A stretch of DNA of 49,430 nucleotides from an uncultured Clostridia bacterium (lineage in GTDB: Bacteria; Bacillota; Clostridia; Christensenellales; Borkfalkiaceae). Made by a program: the position numbers and the translations under genes. The DNA is taken from contig CANQNO010000011.1 in NCBI GenBank assembly GCA_947625245.1, forward strand, positions 1-49,430, given 5' to 3'. Position 1 is the first letter of the stretch; each line of letters opens with the position of its first letter. Shown here one piece after another: positions 23,253-29,300 of this stretch. Under the pieces are notes generated by a model that saw only the letters and a list, made by a program, of their open reading frames with translations, ran no database searches and was not told the origin of the DNA.

Positions 23253-24707
23253 GTGAAAAAATTTGCAGTTTTGATTATTATTTTTGCGCTCTGTATTTCG
23301 GCAACGGCATTTACCGCCTGCAAGCCCAAAAACAGCGAGCCGCTTACATCCTATAACCTTACCGCCGTTTACGACGAAGAGACGCGCACCCTTACGGGCA
23401 CCGCCGACGTGGATTTTTACAATGCCGCGGATAACGAAATATGCGACCTCAAATTCAATCTTTACGGCAACGCGTTCAGGGAAAATTCCGCGTTCCCGCC
23501 CGTTTCGGGCACGTACGAAAACCGCGCCTATTACGACGGCAAGAATTACGGCGCAATGGAAATTTCGGGCGTGGAGGGGTGCGCCGGCTGGAACGTGACG
23601 GGCGAAGACGAAAACGTGCTTTGCGTAAATCTTCCCCAACCCGTATATCCCGGGCAGCGCGCTCAGGTTACGGTAAGCTATACCCTGCGCCTTGCAAAAA
23701 TCAACCACCGCACGGGCGTTACCGAAAACTGCGTAAATTTGGGCAATTTTTATCCCGTGCTCTGCGCATACAGCCCCGAAGGGTTTGTGGAGTGCCCCTA
23801 CTATTCCTGCGGCGACCCGTTTTTGTCGGAAACCGCCGACTACACGGTGGACCTCGACGTGCCCGAAGGCTACACGGCGGCGGCAAGCGGGCTTAAAATT
23901 TCGGAAAGCTCGGTGGATGGACGGCTCAAAACGCGATACAGGTTGCAAAAAGCGCGCGATTTCGCCATAGTTCTTTCAAAAAATTTCAAAACGCTCAAAA
24001 GGGAAGTTAACGGCGCGGAAGTGTGCTATTACTACACTTCGGACGCCGCCGCGGAAGCCTCTCTCGACGCCGCCTGCAAGAGCTTTGCCTATTTTTGCGA
24101 CACGTTCGGCGGATACGCCTATCCCACGCTTTCGGTGGTGCAGACGGGCTTTTGCTACGGCGGTATGGAATACCCCGCGCTCACTATGATATCGGAAGGG
24201 CTTTCCGCGGACGACAATATCTATACGATAGTGCACGAAAACGCCCATCAGTGGTGGTACGCCATGGTGGGGAGCAACCAGCTCACCTGCGCCTGGCAGG
24301 ACGAAGGGCTTGCGGAATATTCTTCGCTGATGTTCTTTGAAAGCGAGCCGGGCTACGGCTATACCCGCGCGGGGCTTGTGGGCGAAGCCACCCGTTCTTA
24401 CAGGGCTTACTTTTCGGTGTTCAACCAGCTTAACGGCAACGCCGACACCACGATGACCCGAAACCTTTCCTCATTTTCAAGCGATTTCGAGTATACCAAC
24501 ATCACCTATAACAAGGGGCTTTTGCTGTTCGATTATCTGCGCAACGCGCTCGGCGACAAAAAATTCAAAGACTGCCTTAAACAGTATTGCGGGCAATTCA
24601 CGGGCAAAATAGCCACCGAAGAGGACATGGTCGCGCTGTTTTGCGAGAGTTTCAAAGACGCCGAAGGCATATTTTCGGCTTTCACGGAGGGAAAAATTCT
24701 TATCTAA
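23253..24707 (+). CDS. Secreted M1-family metallopeptidase, probable lipoprotein
   Basis: A gluzincin aminopeptidase-like protein of 484 residues, presumably trimming extracellular peptides. It starts at GTG (GAGGTG 5 nt upstream). The signal peptide KKFAVLIIIFALCISATAFTAC ends at a likely lipid-modified cysteine. An N-terminal beta-sheet domain (about 35-235) precedes the catalytic domain with GGMEYP near 303, the zinc motif HENAH (328-332) and the third ligand Glu351 in WQDEGLAEY, an exact HExxH-X18-E spacing. It lacks the long C-terminal helical domain of classic APN. An upstream in-frame ATG would not leave a signal peptide at the N-terminus. Confidence 0.92.
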   Translation: MKKFAVLIIIFALCISATAFTACKPKNSEPLTSYNLTAVYDEETRTLTGTADVDFYNAADNEICDLKFNLYGNAFRENSAFPPVSGTYENRAYYDGKNYGAMEISGVEGCAGWNVTGEDENVLCVNLPQPVYPGQRAQVTVSYTLRLAKINHRTGVTENCVNLGNFYPVLCAYSPEGFVECPYYSCGDPFLSETADYTVDLDVPEGYTAAASGLKISESSVDGRLKTRYRLQKARDFAIVLSKNFKTLKREVNGAEVCYYYTSDAAAEASLDAACKSFAYFCDTFGGYAYPTLSVVQTGFCYGGMEYPALTMISEGLSADDNIYTIVHENAHQWWYAMVGSNQLTCAWQDEGLAEYSSLMFFESEPGYGYTRAGLVGEATRSYRAYFSVFNQLNGNADTTMTRNLSSFSSDFEYTNITYNKGLLLFDYLRNALGDKKFKDCLKQYCGQFTGKIATEEDMVALFCESFKDAEGIFSAFTEGKILI

Positions 24708-24724
24708 ATAGTTTGTCAAAAAAC

Positions 24725-24753
24725 TTGCAATCCCGAATATTATAAGGTATAAT
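24725..24753 (+). promoter_or_regulatory. Promoter of the corA leader
   Basis: TTGCAA, 17 nt, TATAAT, with a predicted transcript start near 24760. The corA start codon lies about 170 nt further on, leaving room for the attenuator. Confidence 0.8.
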
Positions 24754-24783
24754 TGTATCGCATTTAATTTTTCGGAAATAATT

Positions 24784-24828
24784 ATGGAAGACCCAAATCA
24801 CAGTAAAACTGAAAATTCTGAAGATTAA
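24784..24828 (+). CDS. 14-residue acidic/proline leader peptide upstream of corA
   Basis: MEDPNHSKTENSED, then TAA. A weak GGAA site lies 6-7 nt before the ATG. The first codons encode E-D-P and the C-terminus is acidic (E-N-S-E-D); acidic plus proline nascent chains destabilise ribosomes when Mg2+ is low, as in the MgtL leader of enteric mgtA. There is no run of a single amino acid, so ordinary amino-acid attenuation is not favoured. The GAT and TAA codons (24823-24828) form part of the 5' arm of the antiterminator described below. Expression is inferred from its placement, not observed. Confidence 0.65.
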   Translation: MEDPNHSKTENSED

Positions 24829-24886
24829 TCCGTACAAAAGCTTACCATGCCCCGATTTTTGCACGGATTAATTCCGTGCATTTTTT
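24823..24886 (+). promoter_or_regulatory. Antiterminator/terminator switch in the corA leader
   Basis: Arm 1 (24824-24839, ATTAATCCGTaCAAAA) pairs with arm 2 (24857-24872, TTTTGcACGGATTAAT): 10 bp, one A-C mismatch, 5 bp, with G-T wobbles at both ends. Arm 2 contains TGCACGGA (24860-24867), which alternatively pairs with TCCGTGCA (24873-24880) to form a terminator hairpin followed by T6 (24881-24886). The two structures are mutually exclusive. A ribosome at the leader-peptide stop codon (24826-24828) would cover arm 1 and favour termination. Confidence 0.8.
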
Positions 24887-24929
24887 ATGCGGCGGAAAAC
24901 CCGCATAAAGGGGTCGGGAGAGGTGAACA

Positions 24930-25928
24930 ATGGTAAATTTTTACGTAACGGGCACAGAGGGCAAGCTTGAAAAAGCGCCCGCATACCGCCGCGGCTGTTG
25001 GGTGGATATGGTAAACCCCACGGACGACGAGTGCGAAGAGATAGTCGCATCGAGCGGGATAGCCGAGGACATGCTTAAAGCCGCCCTCGACGAAGAGGAG
25101 CGCGCCCGCGCGGAATTCGACAACGGTTGCAGCATGTTTATAGTCGACTGCCCTGTTATAGAAGAGGGGAGCGGCGGCGACAGCTACACCACTTTGCCTC
25201 TGGCGGTAATCTACAACAGGGATTGCGTCGTCACTGTATGCCTTAAAGGAAACACCGTTTTAAAGGACTTTATTACGGGCAGGGAAAGGGTTTCCTGCGA
25301 AAACGCCGTAAACTTTGTGCTCACTTTCATGCTCTGCAATTCCACCCGCTTTTTGTATTGCCTTAAACAGATAGACCGCAAAACCCGCCGCATACAGACG
25401 GAAATGGAAAAGACGATGCGCAATTCCGAAATTATCCAGCTTTTGGACTTGCAGAATTCGCTCGTTTATTTTTCCACTTCGCTCGCGGCGAACGACCGCG
25501 TCCACACCAAGCTCTCTAAGGCGGAGGCGGTGGCGCTCCACGAAGAACTGCAGGATCTGAGCGACGACGTGCAGATAGAGACCCGTCAGGCTATAGAGAC
25601 CTGCGACATTTACAAAAATATTCTCAGCGTTACCATGGACGCATACGGTTCGGTAATTTCCAACAATTCCAACAATTCCATGCGTCTGCTCACAATAATA
25701 ACCATTTTGCTGGCGGTGCCCACCATGATAGCGGGCTTTTGGGGAATGAATATGCCCGTTCCCTTCCAAAAGGGAGTTACTTTTGGCGAAACGGGATGGT
25801 TTTGGCTCGTTATGCTCGGCGCACTGCTTTTGACTATGGTAATTGCCGTTTTGCTTGTAAAAATCCCCGGCATCGGGCGGACGCCCCGCGCAAAAAAGAA
25901 CCGCAAAAACAAAAAGGACAGAAGGTAA
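24930..25928 (+). CDS. corA: CorA-family magnesium/divalent cation transporter
   Basis: A pentameric Mg2+ channel subunit of 332 residues. The long cytoplasmic N-terminal domain (about 1-245) contains the helical bundle region (RKTRRIQTEMEKTMRNSE...); two membrane helices follow, the first ending in the diagnostic GMN motif (FWGMNMPVP, near 273), the second at about 290-311, then a basic tail (RAKKNRKNKKDRR). GGAGAGGTG precedes the ATG. Transcription starts about 170 nt upstream and must pass an attenuator containing a leader peptide. fmdB-like zinc-ribbon gene follows 3 nt downstream. Confidence 0.94.
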   Translation: MVNFYVTGTEGKLEKAPAYRRGCWVDMVNPTDDECEEIVASSGIAEDMLKAALDEEERARAEFDNGCSMFIVDCPVIEEGSGGDSYTTLPLAVIYNRDCVVTVCLKGNTVLKDFITGRERVSCENAVNFVLTFMLCNSTRFLYCLKQIDRKTRRIQTEMEKTMRNSEIIQLLDLQNSLVYFSTSLAANDRVHTKLSKAEAVALHEELQDLSDDVQIETRQAIETCDIYKNILSVTMDAYGSVISNNSNNSMRLLTIITILLAVPTMIAGFWGMNMPVPFQKGVTFGETGWFWLVMLGALLLTMVIAVLLVKIPGIGRTPRAKKNRKNKKDRR

Positions 25929-25931
25929 AAT

Positions 25932-26138
25932 ATGCCTGTTTTGCAATACAGGTGCGCATTTTGCGGGTTTGAGTTTGACGAACTTGTAAAAGACCACACC
26001 CAAAAGGTTTATTGCCCGGAGTGCAAAAAAGAGGCGGAAAGGCTGTGGAGCGGCAAGGTATACTCCGCCTTGGGCAAGCCCTGTAAAAGTTGCGGCGGCA
26101 ATTGCTCAAACTGCAAGGGCTGCCGCGGACGCGGCTGA
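25932..26138 (+). CDS. FmdB-type zinc-ribbon protein
   Basis: A 68-residue protein: MPVLQYRCAFCGFEFDEL with a CxxC, then VYCPECKKEAERLW with a second CxxC, i.e. the FmdB/CxxC regulatory zinc ribbon. The C-terminus adds a short Cys-rich tail (PCKSCGGNCSNCKGCRGRG) that could bind a second metal. GAAGG precedes the ATG. It starts 3 nt after corA and is probably co-transcribed. Members of this family are small regulators of uncertain target. Confidence 0.88.
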   Translation: MPVLQYRCAFCGFEFDELVKDHTQKVYCPECKKEAERLWSGKVYSALGKPCKSCGGNCSNCKGCRGRG

Positions 26139-26193
26139 ACAGTGCAAAAATGGGCGTTTTTTCGGTTATTTTGAAAAAAATTTTACAATTCGC

Positions 26194-26222
26194 TTGATTT
26201 TAAGAATATTTTGTTATACAAT
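26194..26222 (+). promoter_or_regulatory. Promoter of the DUF2188-like gene
   Basis: TTGATT, 17 nt, TACAAT, 27 nt before the ATG at 26250. Confidence 0.65.
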
Positions 26223-27189: not shown

Positions 27190-28275
27190 ATGACTAAAAT
27201 AGATATCTTTTCGGGGTTTTTGGGCGCGGGTAAAACCACGCTTATCAAAAAGCTGATAAACGAAGCCTACAAGGGCGAAAAAATCGTGCTTATCGAAAAC
27301 GAATTCGGCGAAATTGGCGTGGACGGCGGGTTTCTCGCCGACGCGGGCATAAAGATAAACGAGCTGAATTCGGGCTGCATATGCTGTTCGCTCGTGGGCG
27401 ACTTTTCAAAGGCGCTTAAAAAAGTCTGCAAGGAATACGATCCCGACCGCATCCTGATCGAGCCGTCGGGCGTGGGCAAACTCTCCGACGTGATCCGCGC
27501 CGTCGCCGAAGCGGGCCTCGAAAACTGCAAAATCAATACCTTTTCGGCGGTCGTCGACGCGAACAAGTGCAAGATGTACATGAAGAATTTCGGCGAATTT
27601 TTCAACGACCAGATAGAGACGGCGGCATGTATAATCTTCTCGCATACCGACGTCGCTTCGCCCGAAAAACTCAATACCGCATGCGAGCTCGTCCGCGCCC
27701 ATAATCCCGGCGCGACCATCGTCACCACTCCCTACGACAAGCTTACGGGCAAGGACCTGCTTGCCGCAATGGAGCACTCCGACACCCTCGAAAGCGAGCT
27801 TGACCGCCTCATGCGCGAACACGGCCACGACCACGACGATGACGACGAAGAAGAGGAAGAGCACGAACACGGTCATTGCTGCCACCATGACCATGACCAC
27901 GATGAAGAAGAGCACGAACACGGTCATTGTTGCCACCATGACCATGACGAAGAGGAAGAGCACGAACACGGTCATTGCCATCACCATCACCATCACGCGG
28001 ACGAAGTATTCAAGAGCTGGGGCGTGGAGACAAGCAAGAAGTTTGACCGCGCAAAGCTCGAAGAGGAGCTGGGTGCGCTTACGGATGCGGTGCGGTTCGG
28101 CACTGTTCTGCGCGCTAAGGGCATAGTGGAGTGCGATTGCGGCAAATGGCTGCATTTCGACTATGTACCGGGCGAAATAAACGTGCGCGAGGGCGCGCCT
28201 TCTTACACGGGCAGGCTGTGCGTAATCGGTTCGGGGCTTGACGAGGAAGAACTCAAAGAGTTATTCGAAGTATAA
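27190..28275 (+). CDS. COG0523 (CobW/ZNG-type) metal-chaperone GTPase with His-rich insertion
   Basis: A G3E-family GTPase of 361 residues that probably delivers or stores Zn2+ or another metal. Walker A GFLGAGKT (9-16), the metal-binding GCICC (62-66) and the ENEFGEIG switch region are present; the C-terminal CobW_C domain follows (about 290-361). Between them (about 211-268) lies a His/Asp/Glu-rich segment of three imperfect repeats of EEEHEHGHCCHHDHD, ending in HCHHHHHH. AGGTG precedes the ATG. A second COG0523-type gene follows 75 nt downstream, so the two are probably co-expressed for metal homeostasis. Confidence 0.93.
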   Translation: MTKIDIFSGFLGAGKTTLIKKLINEAYKGEKIVLIENEFGEIGVDGGFLADAGIKINELNSGCICCSLVGDFSKALKKVCKEYDPDRILIEPSGVGKLSDVIRAVAEAGLENCKINTFSAVVDANKCKMYMKNFGEFFNDQIETAACIIFSHTDVASPEKLNTACELVRAHNPGATIVTTPYDKLTGKDLLAAMEHSDTLESELDRLMREHGHDHDDDDEEEEEHEHGHCCHHDHDHDEEEHEHGHCCHHDHDEEEEHEHGHCHHHHHHADEVFKSWGVETSKKFDRAKLEEELGALTDAVRFGTVLRAKGIVECDCGKWLHFDYVPGEINVREGAPSYTGRLCVIGSGLDEEELKELFEV

Positions 28276-28349
28276 AAGCGTTTAAAATATAAAAATTGCG
28301 CGGCGCGCGGCGCGGCGTTAAAAATAATTTGCCGCAGGCAGGTGAGGCT

Positions 28350-29300
28350 ATGCAGGAAGAAGTATCGGTATATCTGTTTCTCGGATTTCTGGAATCGGGA
28401 AAGACCAAATTCATACAGGAAACGCTCGAAGACCCGCGCATGGAAAACGGCGAGCGCACAATGCTTTTGGTATGCGAGGAGGGCGAAGAGGAGTACGACC
28501 CGCATTTGTTCAAGGTAAAGAACGTTGCGGTAGTCACTTTGGAGAGCGCCGAAGAGCTTACCCTCGAAAATCTTGAAGCGCTTACCGCCAAGCACCGCGT
28601 CCAAAGGGTAGTTGTGGAATACAACGGCGCCTGGCTCTTACAGCGGTTTTTCGACGCCATGCCCGAAAGTTGGGTTATTAACCAGATGATGACTTTCTTC
28701 GACGCCGGCACGTTTTTAAACTACAATAAAAATATGCGGCAGTTGGTTTTCGATAAAATCCAAATGACGCAGATGGTGGTTTTCAACCGCTTTAAGCCCG
28801 ATATGGACAAGATGGAGTTTCATAAAGCGGTGCGGGGCATTTCAAGGCGACCCGACATAGTGTACGAATATACGGGCGGCAAAGCCGAATTCGACGAGAT
28901 AGAGGATCCTTTGCCCTTCGACAAAAACGCAAAAATAGTGGAAATTGCCGACAAGGACTTTGCCTGGTTTTACCGCGACATGGCGGAAAACACTTCGGAA
29001 TATATAGGCAAGACGGTAAAATTCAAGGGCATGGCGGCTGTCTCCAAAAAGGTGCCCGAAGGTTATATAGTTTTGGGCAGGCATATTATGACCTGCTGCG
29101 AGGCGGATATTGCGTACGACGGTTTTGCCGTTAAACTCAACGGCAAAATAGACGGGGTAAAAACGCGGGAGTGGCTTATAATAACCGCAAAAATTTTGTA
29201 CGAATACAATTCCGTCTACCGTTCCAAAGGTCCCGTGCTCGTCGCCGAAAAGGCGGAGAGGTGTGGGGCACCGGAGCAGGTTGTCGCAACATACTACTAA
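28350..29300 (+). CDS. Second COG0523-like GTPase fused to a YcgQ/DUF1980-like C-terminal domain
   Basis: A 316-residue protein. The N-terminal half resembles a G3E GTPase with P-loop GFLESGKT (12-19) but lacks the CxCC metal motif. The C-terminal part (about 205-316) has FAWFYRDMAENTSEYIGKTVKFKG, then VLGRHIMTCCEADIAYDGFAVKL, the pattern of DUF1980/YcgQ-type domains associated with a zinc-linked permease. The start ATG follows GGTGAGG; a longer in-frame start lacks a site. The permease partner (DUF318) is not in this window. The stop codon is 4 bp before an R2-like repeat. Confidence 0.8.
   Translation: MQEEVSVYLFLGFLESGKTKFIQETLEDPRMENGERTMLLVCEEGEEEYDPHLFKVKNVAVVTLESAEELTLENLEALTAKHRVQRVVVEYNGAWLLQRFFDAMPESWVINQMMTFFDAGTFLNYNKNMRQLVFDKIQMTQMVVFNRFKPDMDKMEFHKAVRGISRRPDIVYEYTGGKAEFDEIEDPLPFDKNAKIVEIADKDFAWFYRDMAENTSEYIGKTVKFKGMAAVSKKVPEGYIVLGRHIMTCCEADIAYDGFAVKLNGKIDGVKTREWLIITAKILYEYNSVYRSKGPVLVAEKAERCGAPEQVVATYY

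Follow-up and report, generated by a model that had tools for sequence, protein, structure and literature searches.

Leader peptides ahead of magnesium transporter genes

Ribosome destabilization as a gauge of Mg2+ is described, in the literature covered, for enterobacteria only, and leaders of this kind are unreported for Clostridia; most subscription papers and preprints lay outside that coverage, so that this absence is unproven. The mgtA gene, which encodes a P-type ATPase, is preceded by the short frame mgtL and by alternative RNA structures. The early acidic and proline residues of MgtL render its translation inefficient in low Mg2+, which raises mgtA expression (PMC11552253). In E. coli, where the N-terminus of the peptide reads MEPDPTPLP, Glu2 and Asp4 matter, and EttA stabilizes the ribosome on the EPDP motif and relieves pausing at early acidic residues (PMC11282234). 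The output of MgtL is described as Rho-dependent in Salmonella, and the same paper notes no evidence of Rho at E. coli mgtA (PMC11552253). CorL, ahead of corA in enterobacteria, involves Rho-dependent termination and a three-way junction (PMC11552253), and the corA RNA motif is confined to Gammaproteobacteria (PMC6429828). In the Salmonella mgtC-mgtB intergenic region, the early acidic residues of MgtQ (Asp2, Pro4, Glu5) impede translation and switch hairpins; Asp2 and Glu5 matter for mgtB, Pro4 acts only through base pairing, and the switch works by freeing the mgtB ribosome-binding site, not by termination (PMC8092293). The same source describes the Salmonella mgtM and mgtP frames as responsive to ATP and to charged tRNA-Pro.

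The locus considered here lies in the window, i.e., the whole 49,430-nucleotide stretch that was analyzed, from an uncultured bacterium of the Clostridia (Borkfalkiaceae). Its corA gene, like mgtA, follows a short frame and alternative RNA structures, and the leader carries an acid/proline segment comparable to that of MgtL. The clostridial leaders are milder than the EPDPTP of MgtL, with only one or two acidic residues among the first seven in 133 of 137. They also differ in their target, which is corA in another phylum, in the presence of an intrinsic terminator and, within the genus, in the rare codons that encode the conserved Pro and Ser. From these comparisons, the switch can be classed as an MgtL/CorL-type leader with an intrinsic terminator as its likely output. 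It is set apart within this type because the intrinsic terminator stands where Rho-dependent termination is described for corA.

Attenuators of the trp type also couple a leader peptide to alternative 2:3 and 3:4 hairpins with an intrinsic terminator, as is predicted here. They rely on a run of regulatory codons and on tRNA charging, whereas the proposed sensor of the clostridial leader is destabilization by the nascent chain, and no run of codons for one regulated amino acid, the hallmark of classical attenuators, was found by eye in the leader list. The M-box riboswitch (RF00380) provides Mg2+-responsive control of transporters through an RNA aptamer.

Anatomy of the corA 5′ region in the window

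The original prediction placed a Mg2+-sensing leader-peptide attenuator upstream of a corA gene. The identity of the gene is confirmed: its product (24930-25928, on the forward strand, as are the leader elements described below) matches the CorA-family divalent cation channels of Pfam PF01544 at 169 bits for a cut-off of 27, scores 93.6 bits with TIGR00383, below the equivalog cut-off of 200.75, and contains GMN, the CorA-family signature. The promoter proposed for the leader transcript, TTGCAA-17-TATAAT at 24725-24753, matches the consensus at 10 of 12 letters. The sequence match itself stands, but taken alone it is weak, because scanning 24300-26200 returns seven such promoter-like sites for 1.9 expected.

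Downstream of this site, a weak Shine-Dalgarno (SD) sequence, GGA (24774-24776), precedes the 14-codon frame that had been predicted, which is present at 24784-24828 and reads MEDPNHSKTENSED followed by a stop codon. The stop codon is overlapped by arm 2 (24823-24839), the 5′ arm of a putative antiterminator, whose predicted pairing with arm 3 (24857-24873) amounts to -15.3 kcal/mol with a single A.C mismatch (24834 with 24862); the ends fall within a base or two of those first proposed. From 24860, arm 3 may pair instead with arm 4 to form the predicted intrinsic terminator at 24860-24886, TGCACGGA-TTAAT-TCCGTGCA followed by T6, at -13.7 kcal/mol. The SD of corA is GAGGTG (24920-24925). Within 24842-24929, the predicted fold has the leader closed by a second hairpin, ATGCGG...CCGCAT, and by pairing between the pre-terminator stretch and the region around the corA SD. 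Downstream of corA lie two neighboring CobW-type proteins (27190-28275 and 28296-29300), the first with His/Asp/Glu-rich stretches, which are possibly metal chaperones.

The region as a whole (24760-24930) folds with a z of -4.0, and none of 200 shuffles was equally stable. Such a fold would suit a riboswitch in which Mg2+ is sensed by the RNA itself and the frame plays no part. We regard this reading as highly improbable: an Rfam search of the window leader gave no match, and the conservation described below operates at the protein level, with third codon positions mostly free and with start codons that vary in a frame that is kept.

Conservation of the leader peptide

The upstream regions of 177 corA genes were compared, comprising 72 loci of the genus, 23 of the family, 54 of the order and 28 of the class. 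The genus set represents 72 of 74 genomes with a match (30 + 42 loci; the fragmentary G079 and G085 were left out), and the family set leaves out one weak match (G207). The order set combines 14 loci, from which the weak matches G037, G045 and G046 were left out, with 40 loci chosen by hand so as to sample each genus roughly once; these were taken from 147 genomes with a match, among which nine belong to the family. The class set was drawn from 106 genomes with a match.

A strict rule, which asks for a start codon with an SD and for a peptide of 7-45 residues beginning M[DE]x(0-3)P, at most 330 nt upstream, finds a leader in 59/72 genus, 21/23 family, 36/54 order and 8/28 class loci. The reverse strand yields 0, 1, 1 and 0 matches, respectively, and dinucleotide shuffles yield means of 0.85, 0.9, 1.25 and 0.65. 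With a looser rule, in which the SD counts from three letters upward, and after six additions and one removal made by hand, an M-[D/E] leader frame is present at 137 of the 177 loci (66/72 genus, 22/23 family, 40/54 order and 9/28 class), spread over 22 families according to the taxonomic labels of the search tool, and shuffles give about one to three such frames per set on average. The leader that was dropped, that of L202 (MDYIDVV..., SD of 3), had passed the loose rule. The six additions are genus leaders that lack an SD, and they were included on account of the short distance from TATAAT to their ATG, which is 6 nt in five loci and 10 nt in L096. In these loci (L009, L010, L014, L096, L101 and L102), the position of the ATG relative to the -10 hexamer suggests that the peptide may start a leaderless mRNA. 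More generally, 64 of 66 genus leaders have a TATAAT at a distance of 1-126 nt ahead of their start.

The conservation in relatives of the MEDP-like peptide, a test set by the original prediction, is evident from these counts. They also bear on the least probable of the readings considered, a constitutive terminator next to a chance frame: promoter- and terminator-like matches are indeed common in this stretch, but chance would hardly place the same peptide start at 137 of 177 loci when shuffles yield so few per set.

An accepted leader is absent from 40 of the 177 loci, 19 of them in the class set. The only family locus without one (L137) has just 125 bases upstream, and the six genus loci without one (L012, L023, L099, L104, L110 and L116) have instead TATAAT or TATACT 7-40 nt before the corA start. 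The distant canonical CorA genes of the class were dropped as a wider source of leaders, with 0 of 29 under the strict rule and 2 of 29 under the loose rule.

The conserved start is mostly M-[D/E], a Pro within six residues and then a Ser. Examples are MEDPNHS, MDVPDSC, MDPYYSC and MDANPSF in the genus, MDAVPDNRC and MDAGPNNRC in the family, MDADPLSSNKN, MDTDPLSRTVSQTK and MDPDPYSRNCLG in the order, and MDCDPDSNYHIRN, MDSDPGGSRD and MDADPRACMK in the class. Residue 2 is acidic in all 137 leaders, as the selection rule itself dictates, and is Asp in 117 and Glu in 20. Pro occurs within the first six residues in 125 leaders and is absent there in 12. The start codon is ATG in 118, GTG in 16 and TTG in three, and the leaders range from 10 to 36 residues, with tails that differ among relatives. 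In four gap-free sub-groups, the codons of the conserved D, P and V are invariant at positions 1 and 2 and mostly vary at position 3, which indicates selection on the protein; exceptions are Asp2, encoded by GAC throughout in two sub-groups, and Pro, encoded by CCA in 19 of 20 leaders in one. Since the N-terminus is kept and the tails vary, it is the N-terminus of the nascent chain that is conserved, not the finished peptide.

Codon usage at the start of the leader

In the genus, the first Pro (residues 2-6) is CCA in 48 of 60 leaders and the first Ser (residues 4-8) is AGT in 56 of 63, each the rarest codon for its residue. The codon-usage reference, drawn from corA at 30 genus loci, has CCA for 4 of its 272 Pro codons and AGT for 17 of its 526 Ser codons; because only genus corA genes contribute to it, the rarity of these codons is well established within the genus and less so outside it. 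Codons 3-6 of the genus leaders have mean log2 relative usage values of -1.60, -0.83, -1.50 and -1.77, compared with -0.24 in the tail; at the start of the corA gene, the values lie between -0.15 and 0.64. Taking all 137 leaders together, AGT encodes the first Ser in 95 of 108, and CGA encodes Arg, where it falls within residues 1-9, in 39 of 57. The thirteen leaders beginning with M[DE]VPD use CCA for Pro only once, and their Ser, if present, is always AGT. The near-strict Ser and the rare codons exceed a plain acid/proline rule. The frame upstream of E. coli corA, annotated ysgD (L323 719-775, K-12) and taken as corL from its position, starts with TTG and reads MDTPSRYWLTILSSRINS (MDTPSRYW); it has D2, Pro and Ser in common with the clostridial leaders, and its first Ser is likewise AGT.

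These rare codons may be read as a built-in hesitation that would lengthen the time the ribosome spends at an unstable segment. Alternatively, the conserved codons may reflect a need for a certain nucleotide sequence. The bias would also be expected of a tRNA-starvation or slow-codon attenuator, in which a ribosome stalled on rare Pro (CCA), Ser (AGT) or Arg (CGA) codons would report the supply or modification of aminoacyl-tRNA. The arm geometry described below suits stalling as well as drop-off, and a precedent exists in the Salmonella mgtM and mgtP frames, described as sensing ATP and charged tRNA-Pro (PMC8092293). We nevertheless hold such an attenuator to be unlikely: the leaders have no single-codon run of the classical kind, some lack Pro in the first six residues, Asp and Glu replace each other at residue 2, and the target genes encode Mg2+ transporters instead of biosynthetic enzymes. 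Early loss of the ribosome remains the preferred reading.

Alternative hairpins downstream of the leader

A terminator is found downstream of the leader in 62 of 66 genus loci (2-6 in each of five shuffles) and in 22 of 22 family loci (0-3), and, given these intrinsic terminators, an output other than Rho-dependent termination is likely. The count for the order, 13 of 40 (five shuffles: 1-4), may be low because AT-rich hairpins, one of which is visible by eye in L153, fall short of the three G-C pairs that the rule requires. By this rule, 27 of 40 order leaders and all nine class leaders have no terminator. The four genus leaders in the same situation (L017, L022, L109 and L112) read MDANPSFK...LSA.

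In 58 of 62 genus loci, the best-pairing arm 2 starts close to where the stop codon ends, from 3 nt ahead of that point to 14 nt past it; in 15 of 22 family loci and in 8 of 13 order loci, its start lies further back, within the frame. When arms were swapped between loci, own pairs of arm 2 and arm 3 outperformed swapped ones, and no permutation out of 2000 was as good in the genus, in the order or in a set of 44 distinct arms, with 3 of 2000 in the family; the arm pairing proposed for the window is therefore conserved in relatives with co-variation. Compared with shuffles, the arm following the stop codon pairs better (p ≤ 0.05) in 43 of 62 genus loci with a terminator, 18 of 37 order loci and 2 of 6 class loci, but in just 3 of 22 family loci and in none of the four genus loci without a terminator. 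CCGTAC after the stop codon and GCACGG in arm 3 recur in 36 of 62 genus loci, so that one A.C mismatch of the antiterminator seems to be conserved.

Equilibrium folding agrees with the switch logic first proposed for the window. The predicted probability of the terminator is 0.16 when arm 2 is free and 0.97 when it is masked, as by a ribosome at the stop codon; likewise, the transcript up to 24887 is predicted to adopt the antiterminator with arm 2 unmasked, and the terminator alone if the bases up to about 24841 are omitted. In relatives, mean values for arm 2 free, masked and scrambled are 0.60, 0.94 and 0.92 in the genus (61 loci, L111 having been left out), 0.65, 0.92 and 0.76 in the family (22 loci), and 0.41, 0.96 and 0.90 in the order (13 loci). 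With arm 2 free, the terminator reaches at least 0.5 in 37 of these loci in the genus, 16 in the family and 6 in the order, and stays below 0.5 in the other 24, 6 and 7, respectively. Since the terminator wins at equilibrium in many relatives, either co-transcriptional folding would be needed there or the switch would be partial. Computed in this way, the two RNA structures are predicted to be mutually exclusive and tied to the leader, clearly in the window and more weakly in the family. Altogether, the anatomy of peptide, stop codon and terminator, and their coupling, appear well supported by the comparison of sequences.

Arm 2 starts at least 15 nt past the first base of codon 5 in 61 of 62 loci of the genus, so that a stalled ribosome and a lost one alike would leave it free. 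Sequestration of the corA SD was tried as an output where the terminator is absent and was rejected: in 24 order loci its value, 0.66, equals that of shuffles (0.66). In nine class loci it is 0.92 for 0.66 in shuffles, which is suggestive only.

Evidence bearing on the signal

Of 31 corA-leader loci that were scanned, five have an M-box upstream of both leader and gene, and 26 have none. The five (L158 of genome G057, L197, L198, L203 and L213) all come from one scan of 16 loci, which L158 entered with its M-box already known, and another scan of 15 loci found none. A tandem of M-box, acid/Pro leader and corA would put a single 5′ region under two distinct Mg2+ gates. Among 19 corA loci without an accepted leader, three have an M-box upstream, including L215, in which a frame MDTDPDTNYY lacks an SD. 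Under strict filters, no M-box was found in the window, its genome or 52 of the 60 other genomes searched, and an Rfam search of 20 order-level corA loci, 15 of them with a leader, gave no match.

Leaders of the same kind also precede mgtE. In a set of 49 loci, of which 155 genomes with a match yielded just 30 and from which L250, below the cut-off, was left out, 16 have such a frame by the loose rule (with an SD of at least four letters) and 12 by the strict rule, for none on the reverse strand; a few of the 16 (L235, L295 and L301) look like chance matches. Examples are MDPEPLSGYFDEK, MDPVPLPVNFGK and MDSGPLPGYGYF. MgtL-like starts, such as MDPEPLSG, MDPVPLP and MDSGPLP, occur before mgtE in other Clostridia (L302, L303, L310, L315, L319 and others). 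An M-box precedes mgtE in none of 20 loci (15 with a leader) in one scan and in 2 of 4 in another. MgtE was searched for in the genome of the window and not found. Six genus genomes lack this corA, of which G014, G017 and G035 carry MgtE and G009, G025 and G036 show neither; G006, G007 and G032 show both.

Mg2+ is proposed as the signal because CorA belongs to a Mg2+ channel family, M-boxes lie upstream of some leaders, similar leaders precede mgtE, and the leaders resemble E. coli MgtL, the frame ahead of E. coli corA and Salmonella MgtQ. On these grounds, we favor an explanation in which early ribosome loss would serve to sense Mg2+. The nascent chain could alternatively read the level of ATP, the activity of an ABC-F (EttA-like) protein, polyamines or another ligand through stalling at acidic and Pro residues. 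EttA does relieve early acidic pausing, on MgtL included (PMC11282234), and the conserved Ser after Pro suggests a specific sequence; the co-location with M-boxes at some loci and the leaders before mgtE point to Mg2+ instead, and we give a different ligand a low probability, slightly below that of a slow-codon attenuator.

A model for corA attenuation

These comparisons support the interpretation given in the original prediction and lead to a model, which we consider probable, in which trouble of the ribosome on the leader in low Mg2+ allows corA to be transcribed. From the frame, its protein-level conservation, the hairpins, their geometry and the target gene, we infer translation of the leader, drop-off, a Mg2+ signal and the sign of the response. 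The leader would be translated as soon as it is transcribed, and its first residues, M-[D/E], Pro and then Ser, on codons that are largely rare in the genus, would destabilize or slow the ribosome early in elongation. When Mg2+ is sufficient, the ribosome would reach the stop codon and cover arm 2; arm 3 would then pair with arm 4 as the terminator, and corA would be off. In a shortage of Mg2+, drop-off, or stalling, of the ribosome near codons 3-7 would leave arm 2 free to pair with arm 3, which would prevent the terminator and let corA be transcribed.

Wider implications

The rare codons, the leaders before mgtE, the tandem M-boxes and the spread beyond the genus extend what was originally proposed. 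They raise the prospect, to which we give about even chances, of a class-wide and perhaps cross-phylum family of Mg2+ leader peptides, in which a sensor M-D-x-(D)-P-x-S, slowed by the rarest Pro and Ser codons, is attached to varied outputs and transporters and shares its core with CorL. If so, one sensor would be joined to an intrinsic terminator, possibly to translation control, or to a second gate following an M-box; the same sensor would serve CorA and MgtE, with core residues and an AGT serine codon shared with enterobacterial CorL; and the ribosome would be made, by the design of the rare codons, to linger at its least stable point. An intrinsic terminator is a simpler output that could be assayed in a purified transcription-translation system. 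With 137 natural variants to show which residues and codons are important, the way in which a nascent chain of five to seven residues reports Mg2+ becomes directly testable. The comparative evidence suggests that the same idea recurs across Clostridia, ahead of two unrelated Mg2+ transporters.
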